Source of the DNA: Gemmatimonadota bacterium
GTDB lineage: Bacteria; Latescibacterota; UBA2968; UBA8231
Direction of reading: 5' to 3'
NCBI GenBank assembly: GCA_002712305.1
Contig: PATE01000013.1
Span: forward strand, 9,158-21,571
DNA: 12,414 nucleotides
Part shown: one piece after another, positions 1 to 12,414 of the stretch
Numbering within the stretch: the stretch's first letter is position 1
How the letters are laid out: each line of letters starts with the position of its first letter
Notes under the pieces: model-generated
Told to the model about the DNA's origin: nothing
What the model saw: only the letters and a program-made list of their open reading frames with translations
Database searches by the model: none
Translations under genes and position numbers: made by a program

Positions 1-78
1 GGTCTGTCCGACGAAGATGCTGCGGCGCGCTACACGGCGATCAAGAAGCGCAGGGCCGAAGCGGGAAACACGCAATGA
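1..78 (+). CDS. C-terminal end of an upstream gene, probably the RND periplasmic adaptor (partial)
   Basis: Frame 1 is open from the first base to a TGA at 76-78 and encodes 25 residues beginning GLSDEDAAARYTAIKKRR and ending in Gln. The stop lies 10 nt before the ATG of the first RND permease, so the two genes are almost certainly co-transcribed. In RND operons the gene directly before the permease usually encodes the periplasmic adaptor (HlyD/MFP family). Those proteins often have a 'GL-x-D-G/E' turn in the membrane-proximal domain followed by a charged tail, and this fragment would fit that. The fragment is too short to prove the family, so the adaptor identity rests mainly on position. 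Its coding status is supported by the open frame and the tight spacing. Confidence 0.55.
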   Translation, partial: GLSDEDAAARYTAIKKRRAEAGNTQ

Positions 79-88
79 CGGTGGTCAG

Positions 89-3000
89 ATGAAACTCGTC
101 GACTTCTCGACCTCGCGGCGGGTGACGGTGGCGATGATCATGGTTGCCGTCGTCGCCTTCGGGTCTGTCGGTTTCTCCCGGCTATCTCTGAATCTGTTGC
201 CCGACATCACCTATCCGACGATCACGGTGCGAACCGAGTACGCCGGCACGGCGCCGGCGGAGATGGAGCGCTTGATCACCGAACCTGTGGAAGGGGTCGT
301 CGGTGTCGTGAGCAACGTCGTGCGTGTCAGTTCGATCTCGCGACCGGGTCTGTCCGATGTCATCATCGAATTCGGCTGGGGCACGGAGATGGATTTCGCC
401 GCCCTGGACGTCCGTGAGAAGCTCGACCTGCTGAATCTTCCTCAAGATGCCAGCAAGCCCGTGCTGTTGCGCTTCGATCCGTCTCTCGACCCCGTCATGC
501 GCATCGCCCTGTATGGGGGCAACAGCCTCATGGAGCTGCGCCGCGTTGCCGAAGAACGGATCCGCCTGGACCTGGAGAGTCTGGAAGGCGTCGCGGCAGT
601 ACGTGTGGAAGGGGGCCTGGAGGAGGAGATTCACGTCGAAGTCGAGACGAGCCGACTCGCCAGTCTTGGGATATCGATCTCACAGGTGACGCAGCGATTG
701 GCCGCCGAGAACGTGAATCTCACAGGCGGGCTGTTGAAGGATGGGGAGGCTGAGTTTCTCGTCCGGACATTGAACGAGTTCACCGATCCGGCGTCGATGG
801 AAGATCTCGTTGTCGCAGAAGTAGGCGGGGCAGCCCTGCGTCTGGCCGACGTGGGACGCGTTGTACGCGGTCACCGTGAGCGGGATGTGGTGACGCGCAT
901 CAACGGTCGCGAAGGTGTGGAGATAGCCATCTTCAAGGAAGGGGACGCCAACACCGTAGCCGTCTCGGAGACGGTGAAGCAACGACTCGAGAGTTTCTCA
1001 GAGCGTTACGCAGATCTGCTCGGCGACGCCGAGGTCGACCTCGTCGTCGATCAGGCCGTGTTCATCGAGCAATCGGTGAGCGAGGTGCTGTCCACGGCAT
1101 TGACCGGCGGTGTGTTGGCCATCATCGTCCTCTTTCTGTTTCTGCGTGATCTCAAGAGCACGGTCATCATCGGCCTTTCCATCCCGATCTCCGTGGTGGC
1201 CACCTTCTTCCTCATGTACAGTACTGACGTGAGTCTGAACATCATGTCCCTCGGTGGACTGGCTCTCGGCATCGGTATGCTCGTAGACAGCTCCATCGTG
1301 GTGCTTGAGAATGTGCAGCGTTATCGAGACGACGGGGTCGACACCTTGGGCGCGGCACGTCGGGGAACCAGTGAGGTCGCACAGGCGGTAATCGCCGCGA
1401 CGATGACGACAATCTGTGTGTTCGTCCCGATCGTTTTCGTCGAAGGTGTAGCAGGGCAGTTGTTCCGCGACCAGGCGCTCACCGTGACCTATTCTCTCGT
1501 GGCCGCCCTCTTCGTGGCTCTCATGCTGCTGCCCATGCTTTCCTCCATTGCTCTGCGCCCACTGTCCCGTGAAGAAGAAGGAGATCCAGCGGCGCGGCGC
1601 GTCCGTTATCTGGCAGGTGTTCTCGCATGGGTGGCGCGATTGTTTGCCCTCATCGGTCGTTCGCTGCTTGTCGTGCTGACGCCGGCTCTCTGGCTCTTCG
1701 ATCGGTTGTATGGGGTCACCGCCGAGGCCTATCCAAGATTGCTGCGTTGGTCGCTCGGGCACAGGCTGGTGACACTGGCCGTCTTCATCCTCCTTGGCGC
1801 AGGAGTTCTGCTGCAGGCTCGATCTCTTGGTGTCGAGTTGATCCCCGAAATGAGTCAGGGAGAATTCCTCGTCGATCTCGAATGGCCTGCGGGTACGCCT
1901 CTGGAGGCGACGGCGACTCAGGTTGCGCACATCGACGAGCAACTGCGGAATCTCGCCGGTATTCAGACCGCGTTCAGTCTCGTTGGTGCCAGCGGGGAGA
2001 CGGGGGGCTACGCAGACGAGAAGAAGGAGAATCTCGCGCAGGTGTTCATTCGCCTCAGGCAGGAAGAGAGACAGGCCGAAGAATCTGTCATGTCCTCTGT
2101 TCGCCAGGTCCTGGCCCAGATTCCCGATCTCGACTACAAGTTCTCGCGACCCTCCTATTTCTCCTTCCGTACCCCCATTGAGGTGGAGGTCACCGGATAC
2201 AGTCTCCAGACGCTGCAGGATCTGTCGACGCGAGTCGCTGATCAGATGCGCCGGATGCCGGGTCTGGTGGATGTCCGTTCGAGCGCCGAGGGCGGACAGC
2301 CGGAGATTCAGGTCATCTTCGATCGGCAGCGTGTGGCCGAACTGGGCACGACCATTCAGGCGATCGGCGATGTACTGCGAAACAAGCTGCAGGGCGAAGT
2401 GTCGACGGAACTGATCCGTCAGGATCGTCGCATCGATGTGCGTGTGCGCGCCGTGGAGGATGAGCGAGAATCCGTCGCCGACCTGCGCCGCATGATTATC
2501 AGCCCCGTCAGCTATCCGGTCCCCATTCCTCTTGAGGCGGTGGCGGATGTCATCGTCGTCGAAGGGCCGGCAGAGATCCGGCGCCTCGATCAGGAACGGG
2601 CCGTTCTCATCACCGCTAATCTGAGTGGTCGTGACCTGGGCAGCGCTGTGGCTGAGATCGAGGCGTCCACGGCCGGCCTGGCCCTCCCCGATGGCTTTGG
2701 GATTCAGGTGGGCGGTCAGAACGAAGAGATGGTGCGCAGCTTCGCCAGCATGAAGTTCGCACTCACGCTGGCGATCTTCCTCGTCTACCTGGTCATGGCG
2801 TCGCAGTTCGAGTCTCTGCTGCACCCACTAGTCATCATGTTTACCATCCCCCTGGGACTGATTGGCAGTGTGTTGGCCCTGCTGGTGACGGGGCAGACGA
2901 TCAGTGTCGTTGTCCTCATCGGGTTGATCATGCTGGCGGGGATCGTGGTAAACAATGCCATCGTTCTTGTGGACTACATCAATCAGCTCCGGCGACGCGA

Positions 3001-3238
3001 CAATGGACTGCCCAAGATCGAGGCGGTCCTCGAAGCAGGGCGCCTGCGATTCCGTCCCATTCTGATGACGACGGCCACCACGATTCTGGCGTTGCTGCCC
3101 ATGGCCCTCGGGTTGGGTGAGGGTGCCGAGATTCGTGCACCCATGGCGATTACCGTCATCGGTGGTCTGCTCGTGTCTACGATTCTGACCCTCGTCGTCA
3201 TCCCCGTGGTCTATACGTCACTCGATCGCGCCAACTGA
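89..3238 (+). CDS. RND-superfamily efflux permease, first of a tandem pair (AcrB/MdtB-like)
   Basis: This is an inner-membrane proton-driven export permease of 1049 residues, the usual length for AcrB-type RND proteins. TM1 is at about residues 11-29. A large periplasmic porter/docking loop follows, then TM2-TM6 from about 334 to 500, a second periplasmic loop, and a TM8-TM12 bundle ending with the C-terminus. The TM4 relay reads GMLVDSSIVVLENV: Asp400 is kept, Ser401 replaces the second Asp of AcrB, and Glu407 is present. TM10 has the GIVVNNAIVLVDY motif (Asn955-Asn956, Asp962), where AcrB has its Lys. The TM6-TM7 linker contains an unusually hydrophobic stretch at 508-537. I chose ATG 89 because the product then starts with the typical short cytoplasmic segment MKLVDFSTSRR; an in-frame ATG at 17 lies inside the preceding gene. 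The ribosome-binding site is weak (GGTGG, 80-84). Substrate cannot be read from the sequence. Confidence 0.95.
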   Translation: MKLVDFSTSRRVTVAMIMVAVVAFGSVGFSRLSLNLLPDITYPTITVRTEYAGTAPAEMERLITEPVEGVVGVVSNVVRVSSISRPGLSDVIIEFGWGTEMDFAALDVREKLDLLNLPQDASKPVLLRFDPSLDPVMRIALYGGNSLMELRRVAEERIRLDLESLEGVAAVRVEGGLEEEIHVEVETSRLASLGISISQVTQRLAAENVNLTGGLLKDGEAEFLVRTLNEFTDPASMEDLVVAEVGGAALRLADVGRVVRGHRERDVVTRINGREGVEIAIFKEGDANTVAVSETVKQRLESFSERYADLLGDAEVDLVVDQAVFIEQSVSEVLSTALTGGVLAIIVLFLFLRDLKSTVIIGLSIPISVVATFFLMYSTDVSLNIMSLGGLALGIGMLVDSSIVVLENVQRYRDDGVDTLGAARRGTSEVAQAVIAATMTTICVFVPIVFVEGVAGQLFRDQALTVTYSLVAALFVALMLLPMLSSIALRPLSREEEGDPAARRVRYLAGVLAWVARLFALIGRSLLVVLTPALWLFDRLYGVTAEAYPRLLRWSLGHRLVTLAVFILLGAGVLLQARSLGVELIPEMSQGEFLVDLEWPAGTPLEATATQVAHIDEQLRNLAGIQTAFSLVGASGETGGYADEKKENLAQVFIRLRQEERQAEESVMSSVRQVLAQIPDLDYKFSRPSYFSFRTPIEVEVTGYSLQTLQDLSTRVADQMRRMPGLVDVRSSAEGGQPEIQVIFDRQRVAELGTTIQAIGDVLRNKLQGEVSTELIRQDRRIDVRVRAVEDERESVADLRRMIISPVSYPVPIPLEAVADVIVVEGPAEIRRLDQERAVLITANLSGRDLGSAVAEIEASTAGLALPDGFGIQVGGQNEEMVRSFASMKFALTLAIFLVYLVMASQFESLLHPLVIMFTIPLGLIGSVLALLVTGQTISVVVLIGLIMLAGIVVNNAIVLVDYINQLRRRDNGLPKIEAVLEAGRLRFRPILMTTATTILALLPMALGLGEGAEIRAPMAITVIGGLLVSTILTLVVIPVVYTSLDRAN

Positions 3239-3251
3239 TGCGGAGATCGAC

Positions 3252-6200
3252 ATGAATCTCGCACGCTACGCCGTCAGTCGTCCTGTCACGCTGGGGATGC
3301 TCACCATCTCTCTGGTCGTATTGGGCATGATCTCCTTCGGACGCATTCCCCTGGAGCAGTATCCGTCCTTTTCGTCCTCGGGGATCACTGTCAGTGTGAC
3401 CTACCCTTCAGCTTCTCCAGAGGAAATCGAACGAGACGTCACCCTGCCACTGGAGCAGTCCCTGGCACTGTTGGGAAATCTCGAACGGGTCAGTTCCTCC
3501 TCACGGGCGAACTCGAGTTCCGTGCGTGTCGAGTTTGCCGCTGGGACGGACATGGATCTGGCGGTCATGGACGTGCGCGATCGCGTCGATCAAGTCCGAG
3601 GCATGCTCCCAGAGGGAGTCGAACGAGTAAGGATCCGCCGTTTCCAGAGCGACGATCGTCCCATTCTCGATGCGGATCTGGCCTGGCGCGGCGACGGGGA
3701 GCGGTTCTTCGACATCGTGCGCAAGGTCGTCGAGCCTCGTCTGCTGCGCCTCGATGGGGTCGCCAATGTCACCATTGACGGGATCGAGGAGAAACAACTC
3801 ACGGTGGCCCTCGATCAGCAGCGACTCTCGGCACACGACGTGTCCATGCAGCAACTGGCCAGTCAACTGCGCGGCAACAACGTCAACGTCTCCCTCGGTC
3901 GGGTGATGGACGGAGAACTTCGGTATCAGGTTCGCGCACGCGGCGAGTTCGACCAGGTCGATCAGATCGGTACTCTGCCGATCCCGCAGCGTGATCTGAC
4001 CTTGGCGGATCTTGGTGAGGTTCGCTACGAGTATCCGGAGCGCACGCGGTTCGAACGTCTCAATGGGTCGGATGCAGTCGAAGTGGAGCTCTTCAAGGCG
4101 TCGACGGCGAATGTGATCGAGGTCGCGGAAAAGGCTCGAACAGTCCTGGCTGAGATCGACAAACAATATGGCGAGGAGCTCGACATCGTCATTACCCGCG
4201 ATCGTGCCGCGGAGGTGCTCCGAGAGCTCAACAACCTGCTGGATTCGGCATTGCTGGGTGGTGTGCTGGCCATCGCCATCATCTTCCTCTTCTTACGCAG
4301 CGTTCGCAGCACCATCGTCATCGGCGTTGCCATTCCAGTTTCTGTCTGCTGTGTGTTCACCGGCCTCTACGTTGCTCGCGAGGTGTTCGGATCTCCTGTC
4401 ACGCTGAACATGGTGTCCATGGTGGGGCTGATGCTCGCCGTGGGGATGCTCGTGGACCCTGCTGTCGTGACGTTGGAGAGCATCTTCCGCCGCCGCCAGG
4501 AGGAGGGCGCTGGCCCGGTGGAGGCCGCCGTCGAGGGAAGTCGGGAGATCGGTCTGGCCGTCGTCGCTTCTGCGCTGACCACGATGTGTGTCTTCATCCC
4601 TTTTTTCTTCGTCAACGCCGGTCGCATGAGTCGTTTCATGGGCGACGCGGGCATGACGATCTGTCTGGCGATTGGCGTATCCGCCGCTGTTTCGCTGGCC
4701 GTGATTCCCCTGGCCAGTTCACGTCTGTTTCGTGACGGCTACGAGCGCTACGATGGACTGTTGAAGTTCGCCGTACTCGGCCTCGTTTTCGCGCTGGCGG
4801 GCTGGAAATTCAACAGTGTCGGCACCGATGCGTTCATCGCCTGGGGAAGCACGACCGGCAGCCGCATTCTGGCGCAGACGCTGGGCATGAGTGCAACCAC
4901 AGCTGGTGTGCTCGTCACGATTGCCCTACTGCTGATCGGCGCGGCGTGGTATTTCCGCCGACACGGGATGCGCTCTTCCTACGTACGACTTGTGAACTGG
5001 ACACTCGAGCATCGGGCCGTGACCCTCGGTGTCACTCTCGGTTTCTTCGGACTTGGCATCTGGTTGATCACGCAACTTGAGCAGCAAGGCATGTCCTGGA
5101 CGCCGGAGCGCAGCGTGAGCGTCACCGTTGAGGTGGAGCGTAGCTACTCTCTGGCCGAAACAGATTCGTTGTTCGCCCGCATCGAGCAACTGCTTCTGAC
5201 GAACAAGAAGGATCTGGATATCGAGTCCTTGTCGACTCGTTTTGGCCAACGTGGGGGAAGTGTGACGGCGCGCCTCGTCGATGCAGATGAAGGGAATCTG
5301 TCCACGATGGAGGCAGGCATGGCCGTTCAGCGCATGTTGCCGAAGAAAGTCGGCGTCAACTACCGGATGGGGCGATCCCGTAGCTGGTCGGGCCCGCAGC
5401 TCGGCGTCGAGGTTCAGCTCAAGGGCGTCGACATGGCCGTCCTTGAGGTCCTCGCACAAGACGTGCAGCAGCGGCTGCGCAAGATCGAGGGTGTCCTCAC
5501 CGTTGACACGAGTCTTGAAGATGGGGAAGAGGAGATTCAGGTCAGCGTCGATCGCGAGCAGGCCCTCGCCTATGGCCTGTCAGCGAGGCAAGTTGCCTCA
5601 ACCATTTCCAATGCGTTAGGCACACGACGAACTACCGACTTCAAGGCGCCGGAGCGCGAGATCGGCGTTGTGTTGCAGTTGGAGGAGGAGGATCGTGTCA
5701 GTTTGGAGCAGATCAAGAACATGTTTTTCGAAGGACGCAATGATACGCGAATTCAGCTGGGGGCTCTGGCGGATTTCGAGTTCGCCCACGGACCGCTCAC
5801 GCTGCAGCGCGAGGATCGCAAGCAGACACTGACGGTCTTCGCCAATACCAAGGATCGACGGGCCGCGATGCGTTTGACGCCGACGGTTTCGCAGATGATG
5901 GAGCAAGTGAGTCTGCCACCTGGCTATTCGTGGCAGATGGGGCGGGCAACACGCTGGATGCAGCAGGACACACAGGACAATTCCTTCGTCTTGATCTTCG
6001 CCCTGTTGCTCATCTATCTGATCATGGCGTCGCTCTTCGAGTCTCTGATCCATCCATTCACGATCATGTTTGCCATCCCGTTCTCACTGATCGGCGTGTC
6101 CATCGGTTTCTTCGCGCTGGATATCGCCCTCGACATGAATGGGATTCTTGGACTGCTGATCCTGTTCGGAATCGTCGTGAACAATGGCATCGTACTCGTT

Positions 6201-6512
6201 GATCACATCAATCAGTATCGCCGCGAAGGGCTCGATCGTCGCGCCGCGATCCTGCGAGGCGGTCAGAATCGAATGCGACCGATCCTGATGACGGCGGCCA
6301 CAACGATCCTGAATCTCATGCCTCTCGTTTTACCCATGGTCTACGGCACTTCGGAGGGATTCGCCAAGCGCTGGGGGCCCGTCGGCCTCGTCGTCGTCAG
6401 TGGTCTGACGACTTCGACGATTCTCACCCTCGTGCTCGCGCCCACCCTCTACTCACTGCTCGACGATCTGTCGCTGTGGATGCGCCGTGTCGTGCGAGCC
6501 GTACGTGTCTAA
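3252..6512 (+). CDS. RND-superfamily efflux permease, second of a tandem pair, with extra membrane segments
   Basis: This is a second proton-driven RND permease, 1086 residues, starting MNLARYAVSRPVTLGM with TM1 at about 10-28. ATG 3252 follows the first permease by 13 nt and has a GGAG ribosome-binding site (3242-3245) 6 nt upstream, so the two are translated from one message. The TM4 motif reads GMLVDPAVVTLESI: Asp402 is present, Pro403 stands where AcrB has its second Asp, and Glu409 is kept. TM10 carries GIVVNNGIVLVDH (Asn977-Asn978, Asp984). Two additional hydrophobic segments, about 503-520 and 549-568, lie between TM6 and the segment matching TM7 (about 589-607). The usual linker there is soluble or amphipathic. 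The protein is clearly divergent from its neighbour rather than a recent duplicate. By analogy with MdtB/MdtC, it may form mixed trimers with the first permease, or be a separate pump sharing the adaptor and channel. Confidence 0.95.
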   Translation: MNLARYAVSRPVTLGMLTISLVVLGMISFGRIPLEQYPSFSSSGITVSVTYPSASPEEIERDVTLPLEQSLALLGNLERVSSSSRANSSSVRVEFAAGTDMDLAVMDVRDRVDQVRGMLPEGVERVRIRRFQSDDRPILDADLAWRGDGERFFDIVRKVVEPRLLRLDGVANVTIDGIEEKQLTVALDQQRLSAHDVSMQQLASQLRGNNVNVSLGRVMDGELRYQVRARGEFDQVDQIGTLPIPQRDLTLADLGEVRYEYPERTRFERLNGSDAVEVELFKASTANVIEVAEKARTVLAEIDKQYGEELDIVITRDRAAEVLRELNNLLDSALLGGVLAIAIIFLFLRSVRSTIVIGVAIPVSVCCVFTGLYVAREVFGSPVTLNMVSMVGLMLAVGMLVDPAVVTLESIFRRRQEEGAGPVEAAVEGSREIGLAVVASALTTMCVFIPFFFVNAGRMSRFMGDAGMTICLAIGVSAAVSLAVIPLASSRLFRDGYERYDGLLKFAVLGLVFALAGWKFNSVGTDAFIAWGSTTGSRILAQTLGMSATTAGVLVTIALLLIGAAWYFRRHGMRSSYVRLVNWTLEHRAVTLGVTLGFFGLGIWLITQLEQQGMSWTPERSVSVTVEVERSYSLAETDSLFARIEQLLLTNKKDLDIESLSTRFGQRGGSVTARLVDADEGNLSTMEAGMAVQRMLPKKVGVNYRMGRSRSWSGPQLGVEVQLKGVDMAVLEVLAQDVQQRLRKIEGVLTVDTSLEDGEEEIQVSVDREQALAYGLSARQVASTISNALGTRRTTDFKAPEREIGVVLQLEEEDRVSLEQIKNMFFEGRNDTRIQLGALADFEFAHGPLTLQREDRKQTLTVFANTKDRRAAMRLTPTVSQMMEQVSLPPGYSWQMGRATRWMQQDTQDNSFVLIFALLLIYLIMASLFESLIHPFTIMFAIPFSLIGVSIGFFALDIALDMNGILGLLILFGIVVNNGIVLVDHINQYRREGLDRRAAILRGGQNRMRPILMTAATTILNLMPLVLPMVYGTSEGFAKRWGPVGLVVVSGLTTSTILTLVLAPTLYSLLDDLSLWMRRVVRAVRV

Positions 6513-6568
6513 AGTTTCCACCCGTCAACTCTGCTGATCTGATCGCGAACCAAGGACATCTGTCAATC

Positions 6569-7936
6569 ATGCGCATCGTCGTCATCTGCTTAATCCTGGC
6601 CTCGTTGACCCACGCCGCCATCGCTGATGACACTCCGCTTACCCTGGGGCAGTGCATCGAGATCGCTCTGGCGCAGAATACAGATGTGCGTCTCGCGGAG
6701 GAGGGGCTGACACGATCCCATGCAGACGCCAAGTCCGCCTACGCCCGCCGATTGCCCAGTATCAGTGCTGGTCTGCTGAGCTACTCACGTTCGCGCACGG
6801 GGCCGTCGGTGCGCATCCAGGACAACCCCGCGGGTATCGACCCCGTCACCGGTGAGCGCATCTTCGTCGAAGAGGAGACGCGGATTCCCGCTGTGGACCG
6901 GGACAACTATTCACTCAGCGCGAATCTGAACCACACGATCTTCGACGCCGGTGAGGGCCGACATTCACACAACGCAGCTCGTGCCTCGGTGGATGGTGCA
7001 TCCTTCGATTTCGAAGCGCGCCGGGCACAGGTCGTGTTCTCTGTCAAACAGGCCTACTTCTCACTTTTGAAGGCGTCGGAGTTGACCCAGGTCCAGCAGG
7101 AGAGTCTCGAGCTGAGCCAGCGGCGGCTCGAGGAAGCAAAAGCACGTCTCGAAGTAGGGGCGGGTACACGGGTCGACATGCTCCGTCTACAGGTGGCGGC
7201 GGAGAATACGCGCGCTGATCTGATCAATCTGCAGCAACAGGAGCGCCTGGCTATCGCCCAGCTCAACTACCTCATGGGCCGCGATGTGCTCGTGCCGCTC
7301 ACGGTTGTGCCCTTGTCGGAAGGTGAGCTGCGTGTCCCGCCTCCACCTGCACTCGGCCCACTGGTAGAGCAGGTCCAGGCACGCAATCCAGACCTGCAAC
7401 GTCTGCAGGCTTCTGTGCGTGCTGCCCAATCCTCGGTCAAGTCATCGCAGTCCGCCTACGCACCCCGAGTCTCGGGCAACCTCTCGTACAGCCGAAGCAA
7501 CGAGGTCTTCGATCGAGTGTATGGCAATCTCTCTCAGGAGTATCGCCTCAACGCCGGTCTCTCTCTCAGTTACAATGTGTTCGACGGCGGAATCCGCTCG
7601 GCCGGTGTGCGGCGCTCCAAATCATCGCTTAACACGGCGAGACTCACATTGGAGGCCAGAGAGCGTGATATCGCCCTCAATGTAGAAACCACATGGCTCG
7701 AGTTGGATCGTCTGCGACGGATTCTCGATCTGGCTGAGGGTACCGTCGAACTGGCCACCGAAGACCTGCATCTAGCTGAGGAGCGCTATCGGGTCGGGAA
7801 GGGAACTGTGCTTGAAGCCCTGGACGCGCAGGTGGGTTTCACCGAAGCCCGCAGCAGCATGGTGCGGGCTCGGTATGATCTGGCCGTGGCCGACGCGGAT
7901 CTGCAGCGCCTGCAGGGCGAGGCGGGTGCTGAGTAG
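6569..7936 (+). CDS. TolC-family outer-membrane efflux channel
   Basis: This is the outer-membrane exit duct for the RND pump: 455 residues with two outer-membrane-efflux-protein repeats. A Sec signal peptide is visible (MRIVVICLILASL, likely cut after Ala19 in AIA-DD). No lipobox Cys follows, so it is not a lipoprotein of the OprM type. Repeat 1 starts at TLGQCIEIALAQN (about 25-37) and has long coiled helices at 149-237 containing RLEVGAGTRVDML. Repeat 2 starts at about 262 (LVEQVQARNPDLQRLQ) and has helices at about 365-455 containing RYRVGKGTVLEALDAQ. Beta-strand segments with Tyr-Ser-Arg-Ser lie between the helix pairs in both repeats. I chose ATG 6569, with AAGGA at 6552-6556, over an in-frame ATG at 6476 because the longer form would overlap the permease gene and bury the signal peptide. 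The gene lies 56 nt after the second permease and ends at a hairpin terminator. Confidence 0.93.
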   Translation: MRIVVICLILASLTHAAIADDTPLTLGQCIEIALAQNTDVRLAEEGLTRSHADAKSAYARRLPSISAGLLSYSRSRTGPSVRIQDNPAGIDPVTGERIFVEEETRIPAVDRDNYSLSANLNHTIFDAGEGRHSHNAARASVDGASFDFEARRAQVVFSVKQAYFSLLKASELTQVQQESLELSQRRLEEAKARLEVGAGTRVDMLRLQVAAENTRADLINLQQQERLAIAQLNYLMGRDVLVPLTVVPLSEGELRVPPPPALGPLVEQVQARNPDLQRLQASVRAAQSSVKSSQSAYAPRVSGNLSYSRSNEVFDRVYGNLSQEYRLNAGLSLSYNVFDGGIRSAGVRRSKSSLNTARLTLEARERDIALNVETTWLELDRLRRILDLAEGTVELATEDLHLAEERYRVGKGTVLEALDAQVGFTEARSSMVRARYDLAVADADLQRLQGEAGAE

Positions 7937-8045: not shown

Positions 8046-8837
8046 TCAGTCCAGCGGTACGTCGGTGAAACGGATGGTCACGCCACCATCGGGCGAGCCA
8101 TCGACCGATCTCACTTCAAAAACGCCAGGTCCCTCTAAGTGCAGACCCATGTAGGCCTCTTTGCCCATGTTCGTGTTGAACAGGACCGTACCATCTTCGG
8201 CAACGATCTCAAAGGCGATCTCGCCACGAAGGGCCTCGAGACCGAAGCAGCCTGCGCCGCGACCGTCCGGAAGGCTGATGGCTTGTGATTCGAAACCAGG
8301 CATGTTGCAGATCGTGCGGAAGATGAGGTTGCCCTCACGGTCGCCGCACGGAACGTTCTCGGCCTGTGGGTCCTGCTCGCTGTCGCGCAACTCATTGGAG
8401 CACTCCGGCGCCAATGGCAGGTCGGCAAGATCACCCTCGCCCTCGATCAGCAAGCCACCCTCCATACCCTCTGGACCAGGTCCCATGCCATCCGGCGGAG
8501 GGCCCATGCCGTCCGGGGGTGGTTCCATCCCGTGCATGCCCTCGCCATCCATCGGCGGCGGCATATGGGAGGCCCGGACCCAAGGCATGAACTCGTCGAA
8601 GTCGACGGCGCCATCCCCATTGGCATCCATGAACTGGAAGAACTTCTCCACCATCATGGACTCTCCATCTCCTCCCATCGGCGGCGGCTCTTCACCCTCG
8701 GGTGGTTCGAAACCTTCAGGCGGTCCGAGAACGATCTCGGGGTGCATCGGCGGTTCGCCTTCCATGTGATGTTTGGCAAGCACTGGAGCCGTCAGGACGG
8801 CCAGCAGTGTCAGAACCAGCGTAAGCTTGCGCATCAT
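8046..8837 (-). CDS. Exported EF-hand protein with Met/Pro/Gly-rich repeats, function unknown
   Basis: This is a 263-residue protein with a clear Sec signal peptide (MMRKLTLVLTLLAVLTAPVLA, likely cleaved after Ala21). The mature N-terminus would then be Lys-His-His-Met. Acidic Pro-Glu-Gly-rich sequence follows (29-60), then one EF-hand at 63-89. Its 12-residue loop DANGDGAVDFDE (Asp71, Asn73, Asp75, Asp79, Glu82) is canonical for calcium. Residues 91-128 are His/Met/Pro/Gly-rich, including the repeated heptad PPPDGMG. The C-terminal part (about 145-263) has four cysteines (146, 164, 177, 197), suitable for two disulfides outside the cytoplasm, and alternating hydrophobic patterns suggesting a beta-sandwich. 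The start is supported by GGAG 7 nt upstream of the first of two consecutive Met codons. I do not recognise a named family. Calcium binding is a strong inference; binding of other metals by the Met/His tract is speculative. It is transcribed towards the pump operon and need not be functionally linked to it. Confidence 0.88.
   Translation of the reverse strand: MMRKLTLVLTLLAVLTAPVLAKHHMEGEPPMHPEIVLGPPEGFEPPEGEEPPPMGGDGESMMVEKFFQFMDANGDGAVDFDEFMPWVRASHMPPPMDGEGMHGMEPPPDGMGPPPDGMGPGPEGMEGGLLIEGEGDLADLPLAPECSNELRDSEQDPQAENVPCGDREGNLIFRTICNMPGFESQAISLPDGRGAGCFGLEALRGEIAFEIVAEDGTVLFNTNMGKEAYMGLHLEGPGVFEVRSVDGSPDGGVTIRFTDVPLD
8460..8522 (-). repeat. Three 21-bp tandem repeats encoding PPPDGMG-like heptads
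   Basis: Three consecutive 21-bp units (8460-8480, 8481-8501, 8502-8522) inside the EF-hand gene encode PGPEGME, PPPDGMG and PPPDGMG. The last two units match at 17 of 21 bases and the first is more diverged. The repeats are in frame, so a change in copy number would lengthen or shorten the linker by 7 residues without breaking the gene. Confidence 0.8.
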
Positions 8838-9197: not shown

Positions 9198-10475
9198 ATG
9201 TCCTTGGAATTGTTAGGGGGCCCCTTCTTCTCGGTGGCTGGCGCTGGCGAGTCACATGGCCCGGGGATCACGAGCATCGTATTCGGCTGCCCCGCCGGGC
9301 TCCGACTCACTCGTGCGGATCTGCAGGCTCAACTGGATCGCCGCAAGCCAGGCAGCAACAAACTCGGCACACCGAGACGGGAAGGGGACAAGGTGGTCAT
9401 CCTCTCCGGACTGTACGATGCAGATCACGATGCCCTGCTCGGCGGGGCGGGGGTGTCCACGCGTGTGGGCGATGACGAGTGCGCTACGGCGACGTATGAA
9501 GCTGGGTTCACGACGGGTGAGCCCCTTGCTGCACTGGTGCTGTCGGCCGCAAAACGCTCGGCTGATTATGCTCAGTTTCTCGGAGCCAGTGGTGATGTGC
9601 GGCCGGGGCACGCCGATCTGGTGAAATACCACAAGTCCCGAGGCTACACCGACCCGCGCGGCGGTGGTCGAACGTCCTATCGGTCGACGATCAGCGACGT
9701 CATCGGCGGCACCGTAGCTCGACATTTCCTCGTCGAGCACTTTGGCACGGTCTTCGTCTCGGCCATCTGCCAGGTGGGTGAGTTGAAGGCAAGCCAACAT
9801 CTCGCCGATTTGGTCGGTTCAGGCGAGATGGAGGAAGCCGCCCTGTCCGAACTGCAGTCCCGGCTCACCGACGCCGATGCCGTCCCCGAAGGTGAGGACT
9901 TCCTCCCCGCAGTGGATGGGGACTTCGCGCTCGAAGCGGCCCAACTGATCAAGGAGGCTCGTAAGCAGGGTGACTCTGTGGGGGCCCAGGTCGAGGTCGT
10001 GGGGATCCGCGTACCTGCCCTGGCCGGTGAACCGCTCTACGACAGTCTGAAAAAACGACTCATGGGAAGTCTCGGTGGTCTGCACGCAGTTCAATCCTGT
10101 GAGATGGGATCCGGACAGGCATCGGTGTCGCGCCATGGCAGCGAGCACAACGATCCGATCCGCCGGCAAGGGTATCAGACCAATCATCATGGAGGGCTGC
10201 TGGGGGGCATCACCACAGGATCACCCCTCGTCTTCCGCGTCGGCTTCAAGCCCACATCGACGATCACCAAGATGCAGTCTTCCATTCAGAAGGATTTCGA
10301 GGAGATCGACTACAAACTCGGCAAGGGCCGACATGATCCGTGTCTCGGCATTCGGGCAGGGGTGACGGTCGAATCTCGGATGGCGATCGAGGTGATGGAC
10401 GCCGTGCTCGCTCATCAAGCGAGTCGTATCGGTCCGGACGCCTTCAACCTGTTCAACAACAAGGAGCCCTCGTGA
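9198..10475 (+). CDS. aroC: Chorismate synthase (AroC), divergent long form
   Basis: Chorismate synthase converts 5-enolpyruvylshikimate-3-phosphate to chorismate with reduced FMN, the last step of the cytosolic shikimate pathway. Family landmarks appear in order: AGAGESHGPGITSIVFGCPAG with the catalytic-type His20; LDRRKPGSN (Arg49); RPGHADL with His138; RGGGRTSYRST (Arg158, Ser160); QTNHHGGLLGGITTG; and GRHDPC (Arg378, Asp380). At 425 residues it is longer than the usual 350-400. About 28 extra residues lie between LSG (69-71) and TTGEP (105-109), a junction normally only a few residues long. After RHDPC the sequence reads LGIRAGVTVESRM, where E. coli AroC has GIRAVPIAEAM. ATG 9198 is preceded by a modest GGAAAG. 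The gene overlaps the next one by 4 nt. The His and Arg residues argue that it is active, but a specialised paralogue cannot be excluded. Confidence 0.93.
   Translation: MSLELLGGPFFSVAGAGESHGPGITSIVFGCPAGLRLTRADLQAQLDRRKPGSNKLGTPRREGDKVVILSGLYDADHDALLGGAGVSTRVGDDECATATYEAGFTTGEPLAALVLSAAKRSADYAQFLGASGDVRPGHADLVKYHKSRGYTDPRGGGRTSYRSTISDVIGGTVARHFLVEHFGTVFVSAICQVGELKASQHLADLVGSGEMEEAALSELQSRLTDADAVPEGEDFLPAVDGDFALEAAQLIKEARKQGDSVGAQVEVVGIRVPALAGEPLYDSLKKRLMGSLGGLHAVQSCEMGSGQASVSRHGSEHNDPIRRQGYQTNHHGGLLGGITTGSPLVFRVGFKPTSTITKMQSSIQKDFEEIDYKLGKGRHDPCLGIRAGVTVESRMAIEVMDAVLAHQASRIGPDAFNLFNNKEPS
10461..10466 (+). promoter_or_regulatory. Ribosome-binding site fixing a GTG start inside the end of aroC
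   Basis: AAGGAG lies in the last codons of aroC, 5 nt before the GTG at 10472 whose last two bases begin the aroC TGA stop. A second in-frame GTG at 10478 would be 11 nt away. The strong site and the GTGA overlap indicate translational coupling of aroC and the downstream gene. Confidence 0.8.
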
Positions 10476-12414
10476 CGGTGCTGGCCTTCGAAGACGCCGG
10501 TCGCCTGCCGGCGCCAGGCGACAACGTAGCGATTGCCGTACGTCGACTCGACGCGGGAACGCGCGTCCGGCTCGGGGCGGGTCAGGTAACCCTGTCCCAC
10601 ACAATTCTCGAGGGACACCGGTTCGCCGTTGAACCGATCGCGGTCGGAGATGTTCTGCTGTCCTGGGGACTGCCCTTTGGTGTGGCCCGCAGCGCCATCT
10701 CGCCGGGTGAATACGTCACCAATCCCGGTATGCTGGAGGCCCTCGGTGGCCGCTCCATCGACTTTGAGCTCCCCGCCGAGCCAAACTTCGAGGACCGCGT
10801 CGTTCCGTATCAGCTGGACGAGAACACTTTCTCCCCCGCCGCCCCCATGCCTCGCCGCAAGGAGATCCCCACGTTCCGTGGATTTGATCGAGGATCTCGG
10901 GGAGTAGGCACCCGCAATCACATCGTCGTACTGGGTACGACGTCGCGGACAGCGGCCTTTGCTCGCCAACTGGCGCAACGCTGCAGCGATCTGCCCACGA
11001 GTGATCACTTCGATGGGGTTGTGGCCGTGGCGCATACCGAGGGGGGAGGAGAACGGACACCGAACAATCGTGAACTGCTGCTGCGCACCCTGGCCGGCTT
11101 CGTAACCCACCCGAATGTGGGGGCTGCCCTCGCCGTCGACTACGGCAGCGAGGCTGTACCCAACGAGCAACTGCGCGCATATCTACGGGAGCAGGGGCGC
11201 GACACGGCCGATATGCCCCTCGACTTTCTCTCCATAGATGGCCCCTTCGATCACGCCCTGGTGGCTGCGGAACGGCAGATCCGCGAATGGGCGGAGCCGG
11301 TTGCGGCGACGCAGAGAACCACTTGCAGTGCGGGAGAGCTGAAACTGGCCTTGCAGTGCGGTGGATCGGACGCTTTCTCAGGCGTGTCCGGCAATCCGCT
11401 GGCTGCGTGGGTTGCACGCGAGCTCGTTCGCTGCGGTGGCGCGGCGAATCTCGCCGAGACCGACGAACTCATCGGCGCCGAGCCCTATGTGCTGGACAAG
11501 GTCGCAGATGTCGCCACAGCTCGCCGCTTCCTCGAGATGGTCGAGCGCTTCAAAGCACGAGCCGCTGACCACGGAACGTCGGCAGAGGGGAATCCCTCGG
11601 GAGGGAACAAATTCCGAGGGTTGTACAACATCGTCCTGAAGTCGATCGGCGCCGCCATGAAACGTCATCCCGACGTACGTCTAGAGGGTTGCCTCGAGTA
11701 TGCACAGCCCTTCCCGGCATCGGGCTACTATTTCATGGACAGCCCCGGCAATGACCTTGAATCGATTGCGGGACAGGTCGCCTCTGGCTGTAATTTGATC
11801 TACTTCGTCACCGGCAATGGTTCGATTACGAATTTCCCGTTCGTTCCAACCCTCAAACTGCTGACCACGACGGCGCGCTACGAGTTGCTGCAGCAGGACA
11901 TGGATGTTAATGCGGGGGCCTATCAGGATGGCGCTTCCATGGACGATCTGGGCGAGGCCCTGTTCGATCTGAGTCTGCGTGTCTCGTCGGGTGAACGCAG
12001 CAAGGGGGAGGCAGCGGGACATTCGCAGGTATCGATCTGGCGTGATTGGCCTCGCACGTCGGGCGAAGGTCTCGAAGATGCGCTGAATACGGGGGAGCCC
12101 GATGGTCACCCACTTCCCGTGTCGGTGTCGCGAAGCGACGAGGCCCCCGACGTGTCACTGCACGGTTTCGATGGGCCGGCTGGTTTCCATCTGCATCGCA
12201 TCTCCCTCGTTATGCCCACCAGTCTCTGCTCTGGCCAGGTGGCCCGCATGGCGGCGGAGAGATTGCAGCAGGCGGATCCAGAATCAGGTGTGAGGTACTG
12301 TGCACTCGTACACACCGAAGGATGTGGTGCGTCGAGCGGCCCGAACGAGGACATCTACGCACGCTCGCTGATCGGATACCTCACCCATCCATCGGTTGAG
12401 CGGGCGATGTTGCT
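10472..12414 (+). CDS. UxaA/GarD-family sugar-acid dehydratase-like protein with a duplicated subdomain (3' end outside window)
   Basis: The visible 647 residues are open to the window edge. Residues about 13-90 form a SAF domain (GHRFAVEPIAVGD, His49), as in altronate dehydratase UxaA, galactarate dehydratase GarD and sulfolactate lyase SuyA. The catalytic part follows: GVGTRNH (145-150), HTEGGG (188-193), YGSE (224-227), LQCGGSDAFSG (294-304), FMDSPGNDLESIAGQV (from about 421) and DMDVNAG (476-482). A tail resembling the normal UxaA C-terminus ends near Trp526. The protein then continues with a linker and, from about 571, a second copy of the GTRN-to-HTEGCG subdomain (Cys586, His614, Cys618). 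Family members normally carry Cys at the sites occupied in copy 1 by Arg159, Gly192 and Ser226. These enzymes dehydrate sugar acids such as altronate or galactarate using iron or a similar metal; the substrate here is unknown. The GTG start is set by AAGGAG and the GTGA overlap with aroC. Confidence 0.88.
   Translation, partial: MTVLAFEDAGRLPAPGDNVAIAVRRLDAGTRVRLGAGQVTLSHTILEGHRFAVEPIAVGDVLLSWGLPFGVARSAISPGEYVTNPGMLEALGGRSIDFELPAEPNFEDRVVPYQLDENTFSPAAPMPRRKEIPTFRGFDRGSRGVGTRNHIVVLGTTSRTAAFARQLAQRCSDLPTSDHFDGVVAVAHTEGGGERTPNNRELLLRTLAGFVTHPNVGAALAVDYGSEAVPNEQLRAYLREQGRDTADMPLDFLSIDGPFDHALVAAERQIREWAEPVAATQRTTCSAGELKLALQCGGSDAFSGVSGNPLAAWVARELVRCGGAANLAETDELIGAEPYVLDKVADVATARRFLEMVERFKARAADHGTSAEGNPSGGNKFRGLYNIVLKSIGAAMKRHPDVRLEGCLEYAQPFPASGYYFMDSPGNDLESIAGQVASGCNLIYFVTGNGSITNFPFVPTLKLLTTTARYELLQQDMDVNAGAYQDGASMDDLGEALFDLSLRVSSGERSKGEAAGHSQVSIWRDWPRTSGEGLEDALNTGEPDGHPLPVSVSRSDEAPDVSLHGFDGPAGFHLHRISLVMPTSLCSGQVARMAAERLQQADPESGVRYCALVHTEGCGASSGPNEDIYARSLIGYLTHPSVERAML

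Follow-up and report, generated by a model that had tools for sequence, protein, structure and literature searches.

A fused double-copy UxaA/GarD-family protein with its conserved cysteines divided between the copies

We describe here a member of the UxaA/GarD superfamily in which the catalytic region has been duplicated and fused into a single chain, with the four cysteines conserved in the superfamily divided between the two copies. The opposite half-losses of the copies are invariant across 92 fused proteins, and this pattern in the aligned sequences suggests that a single iron site is assembled jointly from the two. From this standpoint the protein would be a pseudo-heterodimer with one composite iron site to which both copies contribute, a reading that we consider probable. 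We found no published description of a fused UxaA in the searchable literature, where the double-copy layout is apparently undescribed.

Reading frame, domain layout and origin of the fusion

The fused gene lies on the + strand at the end of the window, by which we mean the whole 12,414-nucleotide stretch of DNA analysed (G000:C34:9158-21571). It begins with a GTG codon at 10472 and exits the window at 12414, still in frame, at residue 647. The source contig beyond the window (G000:C34) continues the frame to residue 896, where it stops (L002:7317, equivalent to G000:C34:22316), ruling out the early frame end that the initial annotation had allowed for. The assignment of GTG 10472 as the start is based on its overlap with the stop codon of the upstream chorismate synthase gene aroC (9198-10475, + strand) and on alignment with relatives. 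The overlap takes the form GTGA (10472-10475), which suggests coupled translation of aroC and the fused gene.

The domain order of the full 896-residue protein in Pfam is SAF, GD_AH_second, GD_AH_C, GD_AH_second, GD_AH_C, with no second SAF domain, and all three domain types score above their Pfam cut-offs, as expected of a member of the UxaA/GarD superfamily. The SAF domain (residues 17-83, 10520-10720; PF08666, 28.6 bits against a cut-off of 21) is followed by the copy 1 second domain (residues 137-275, 10880-11296; PF04295), in which the first three family cysteines are replaced, and by the copy 1 C-terminal domain (residues 289-526, 11336-12049; PF20629), in which the motifs QCGGSD, ETDE, NPSGGNK and SPGND are intact. 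The copy 2 second domain starts at about residue 571 (12182-12412 within the window), as located by Pfam on copy 2 alone and by BLASTP of copy 1 against copy 2. Its remainder lies beyond the window, together with a degenerate copy 2 C-terminal domain (L002:6571-7317).

BLASTP shows the two copies to be homologous, with E values of 2e-14 over the second domain and 6e-7 over a C-terminal segment, and copy 2 on its own is recognised by Pfam both as GD_AH_second (43.2 bits, cut-off 27.3) and as GD_AH_C (32.5 bits, cut-off 26.8). Taken with the frame open to residue 896, these results bear out the earlier proposal of a pseudo-dimer produced by fusion. The accompanying estimate of about double length was somewhat high: since it has just one SAF domain, the protein at 896 residues is ~1.7 times as long as a single enzyme. 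Among the motifs that the initial annotation thought might recur past 12414, the GCE site is present as Cys652 in EHGCEKTHND and MD-x-PG as MDTPG, while a second QCGGSD is absent.

The fused layout is widely distributed. When copy 2 was used as a protein query against 100 genomes, almost every genome of the same class gave a match, lying in a frame of ~900 residues, and the extracted relatives align end to end with 50-62% identity. A scan of genome contigs yielded 441 stretches encoding a copy 2 relative; both copies are in one open frame at 74 of the 80 loci fetched from these, and the other six are cut by a contig end. The gene occurs in Latescibacterota, Poribacteria, Chloroflexota, Actinomycetota (Rubrobacter), Acidobacteria, Entotheonella, Trueperaceae and Bacillota (Paenibacillus, Alicyclobacillus and Halalkalibacter), and also in the single-contig genomes G018, G024, G027 and G030. 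Two further fused genes, encoding WP_119071223.1 of Rubrobacter indicoceani and WP_145891904.1 of Pantoea soli, are plasmid-borne, and RefSeq names their products only 'UxaA family hydrolase', a label that hides the incompleteness of each catalytic unit. No copy 2 lacking copy 1 was found among the copy 2 profile matches, the short frames that were checked being cut by contig ends, and phages gave no match. Both PF04295 matches in the source genome fall in the fused gene. This is the only UxaA-family gene found there, and so no intact paralogue is seen that could supply its function.

Maximum-likelihood phylogeny resolves three strongly supported groups, made up of the copy 1 sequences, the copy 2 sequences and the single-copy enzymes, and the copy 2 branch is long (2.01 substitutions per column). 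The fusion is old and has a single origin, this grouping being consistent with one duplication and fusion event, after which the gene diverged and spread widely.

Division of the conserved residues between the copies

Four cysteines (here Cys1 to Cys4) are conserved across the superfamily, except in sulfolactate sulfo-lyase, and were proposed as iron ligands by Watanabe and colleagues (PMC6336799); that all four bind one iron is itself a proposal, made from EPR and conservation (PMC6336799). To follow these positions, we aligned both copies of the 92 fused proteins, which come from several bacterial phyla, with single-copy enzymes. In copy 1 of the window protein, numbered from the GTG at 10472, the positions of Cys1, Cys2 and Cys3 (Cys144, Cys179 and Cys215 of GarD) are taken by Arg159 (10946-10948), Gly192 (11045-11047) and Ser226 (11147-11149), as originally read, and none of the 92 proteins has cysteine at any of these three copy 1 positions. 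The equivalent residues of copy 2 are cysteine in 92/92: Cys586 (PTSLC, 12227-12229) and Cys618 (HTEGCG, 12323-12325), both already noted in the initial annotation, and Cys652, the third site that it had placed beyond the window. The restriction of the first three cysteines to copy 2 is thus confirmed across the 92 proteins. Cys4 behaves in the opposite manner, with the cysteine of QCGGSD (Cys296, 11357-11359; Cys288 of GarD) present in all 92 copies 1 and in 0/92 copies 2. The window protein therefore has the full set of subfamily features, namely one frame, a SAF domain with two catalytic copies, Cys4 in copy 1 and Cys1-3 in copy 2, and the same division of cysteines is found in the plasmid-borne proteins of Rubrobacter indicoceani and Pantoea soli. 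Neither copy has four cysteines within one catalytic unit; the set is complete only over the whole fused chain. Residues of the copy 1 type are not common in ordinary single-copy UxaA proteins, which might have explained the pattern, since all four cysteines are present in 30 of the 33 usable single-copy rows (two pairs of which are identical).

The division extends beyond the cysteines. Of the residues that single-copy enzymes conserve in the C-terminal domain, copy 1 alone retains 29, both copies share 5 and copy 2 alone retains 0, and the copy 2 C-terminal domain as a whole is poorly conserved. In the second domain, the conserved residues that survive in copy 2 but not in copy 1 are just the three cysteines and Gln680 (Gln244 of GarD). 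Because copy 1 retains GxGxRN and Asn215 (Asn203 of GarD) of its own second domain, the copies have not cleanly exchanged domains. Given the separation of Cys1-3 from Cys4, copy 1 has more than a structural part, and copy 2 is unable to hold a whole site.

Gene neighbourhoods and related enzymes

Pooled annotation of neighbouring genes gave a weak signal, and clustering and single loci were more informative. On the Pantoea soli plasmid the fused gene lies between a GntR regulator gene and genes for a FAH-family protein and a 2-keto-3-deoxygluconate (KDG) permease. Its neighbours in Paenibacillus thermotolerans encode RraA-like and FAH-family proteins, a YjhG/YagF xylonate dehydratase, sugar-type dehydrogenases and an alpha-ketoglutaric-semialdehyde dehydrogenase (867 bits against a curated cut-off of 770), and those in a Rubrobacteraceae genome encode an aldehyde dehydrogenase, a FAH-family protein, a PfkB kinase and a DHDPS-family protein. 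With their genes for FAH-family proteins, alpha-ketoglutaric-semialdehyde dehydrogenase and ketodeoxygluconate permease, these operons point to the dehydration of sugar acids. The predicted reaction would remove water from an aldonic acid, for instance a pentonate or hexonate, and yield a 2-keto-3-deoxy acid. The neighbouring genes around the window (aroC, Ldh_2 and carA) name no substrate; among the related loci, aroC is the upstream neighbour at seven and a converging Ldh_2-type dehydrogenase gene lies downstream at six. In Rubrobacter indicoceani the fused gene is flanked by Nramp-type divalent metal transporter genes (L220 8533-9957 and 13887-15356), whose position on either side would fit an iron- or manganese-dependent enzyme.

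The rest of the window holds two adjacent RND efflux permease-like genes (2-6512) and a TolC-like gene (6476-7936), identified by reading their translations, and, on the - strand at 8046-8837, a gene whose product looks secreted, is rich in Met, Pro and Gly and contains an EF-hand-like stretch, DANGDGAVDFDEF.

Among the closest known enzymes, the galactarate dehydratase GarD of E. coli (PDB 6u7l) resembles residues 1-525 of the fused protein in domain order and fold (phmmer E 1e-39). AlphaFold2 gave a confident, compact model (pLDDT 89, pTM 0.90) of a homologue that shares 62% identity with the window protein, and copy 1 of this model has the three-domain fold of GarD over the first 525 residues (Z 43.7 to 6u7l_C, 438 residues, 2.7 Å). 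Parts of the model also matched CO dehydrogenase, transketolase-like and periplasmic-binding-like folds in Foldseek and VIA; these matches were weak or reflected common arrangements and were set aside. The cysteine positions of GarD match the four counted over both fused copies; however, GarD carries them all in a single-copy chain, whereas the fused protein has an extra degenerate copy and a one-plus-three split. At 171.2 bits the fused protein is far below the cut-off of the galactarate dehydratase equivalog TIGR03248 (730.85). The altronate dehydratase UxaA of E. coli has ~31% identity to copy 1 and shares its SAF, second and C-terminal domains, but it too is a single copy with four cysteines in one chain. 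The D-arabinonate dehydratase C785_RS13685 belongs to the same superfamily and acts in a non-phosphorylative pathway, genes for FAH-family enzymes lying close to its own (PMC6336799). Nearby FAH-family genes are a feature that it has in common with several fused-gene clusters, although it differs from the fused protein in being a single copy with Cys134, Cys173, Cys208 and Cys276 in one chain (PMC6336799).

Two-subunit members of the superfamily include the sulfolactate sulfo-lyase SuyAB and a predicted heteromeric L-fuconate dehydratase (PMC6336799). In these, as in the fused protein, more than one polypeptide segment makes the enzyme. These two-subunit members split the SAF domain from the catalytic part, and they are not known to duplicate the catalytic part or to divide its cysteines. 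Separate SAF and catalytic genes of this type are not what is found here, the source genome and 74 of the 80 fetched loci having one open frame.

A putative shared iron site and its alternatives

Ordinary members of the superfamily are probably dimers, in which each iron site would comprise the three second-domain cysteines, Cys4 of QCGGSD and other C-terminal-domain residues. A single duplication and fusion would have placed two equivalent sites in one chain, one of which would then have been given up, with copy 1 losing Cys1-3 and copy 2 losing Cys4 and nearly all of the catalytic C-terminal residues. The site that remains would be built from the three cysteines and Gln680 of copy 2 and from Cys296, the SAF domain and the C-terminal motifs of copy 1, such that the four cysteines would meet at one metal between the two copies. 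The fused protein is a clear candidate for a dimeric enzyme made into a one-site pseudo-heterodimer by gene fusion.

This arrangement was approached by modelling. An AlphaFold2 prediction of a fragment reduced to the C-terminal domain of copy 1 and the second domain of copy 2 gave a pTM of 0.82, as expected if these domains pack together and above what we would expect of two domains with no fixed contact, although the copy 2 domain could have docked in the position left vacant by the missing copy 1 second domain. Together with the model of the whole homologue, this result supports such packing.

The geometry has a bearing on ordinary members of the superfamily. If each of their sites were formed by a single chain, neither site of the fused protein would be intact, and yet all of the parts have been kept invariant. 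If their sites were instead formed across chains, with Cys1-3 from one chain and Cys4 from the other, the fused protein would keep one whole site and drop all cysteines of the other, as is seen. We give roughly even odds to the broader proposition that throughout the UxaA/GarD superfamily the iron site spans the dimer interface, with Cys1-3 supplied by one chain and Cys4 and the C-terminal residues by the other. In the GarD structure paper the dimer interface is reportedly formed by the second domain, which would agree with a site of this kind. If the proposition is true, the fused subfamily would be a natural half-of-sites version of the enzyme, in which the one site kept of the two reveals the architecture of the superfamily. 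The invariant complementary loss is in any case natural evidence on iron-site assembly in a poorly understood group of dehydratases. A simple test follows for ordinary UxaA or GarD, namely complementation between mutant chains.

The half-sets could alternatively serve two separate sites, with the copy 1 C-terminal domain binding a divalent metal and the substrate by itself and the copy 2 cysteines forming another centre, of iron or iron-sulphur type, that serves in structure, sensing or electron transfer. Each half-set is indeed invariant on its own, and the copy 2 sequence EHGCEKTHND is nearly invariant over a stretch longer than the cysteine itself. The GarD crystal structure is also said to contain a calcium ion in the C-terminal domain. 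However, the half-sets sum to the standard four cysteines and C-terminal residues with no overlap in cysteines, and such exact complementarity is not expected from independent loss, making separate sites rather unlikely.

It is more doubtful still that the protein is non-catalytic, as would be a sensor or regulator descended from a degenerate dehydratase. The site is incomplete in each copy taken singly, as this idea would have it, but the two together keep the full residue set, the gene lies in catabolic operons with FAH-family, aldehyde dehydrogenase and permease genes, and it is the sole UxaA-family gene found in the source genome. The suggestion in the initial annotation that copy 2 took over the whole active site while copy 1 became structural accounts for the three cysteines found only in copy 2. 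It is difficult to reconcile with the loss of Cys4 and QCGGSD from copy 2, with the 29 C-terminal residues kept only in copy 1 against none only in copy 2, and with the long branch and poorly conserved C-terminal domain of copy 2, and we regard it as very improbable. The approach of the copy 2 cysteines to the copy 1 QCGGSD, which the same annotation had also raised, is the better reading. Finally, although copy 2 is cut by the end of the window and a few single N bases occur in the contig, an assembly, frameshift or window-edge artefact has a negligible chance of explaining a layout that recurs in 74 other fetched loci, in single-contig genomes and on RefSeq plasmids, and the possibility that copy 2 is a separate gene joined by such an error is refuted by the single open frame at 74 of 80 loci, with the other six cut by contig ends.

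Separately from the fused subfamily, unfused UxaA-like proteins in three loci, L069 (G025:C183), L157 (G054) and L181 (G052), lack some of Cys1-3 and keep Cys4, the residues at the four positions being AIYC, LRIC and CLCC, respectively. These proteins may be sulfo-lyase-like, or may be heteromer partners of an intact paralogue and so a possible unfused parallel.
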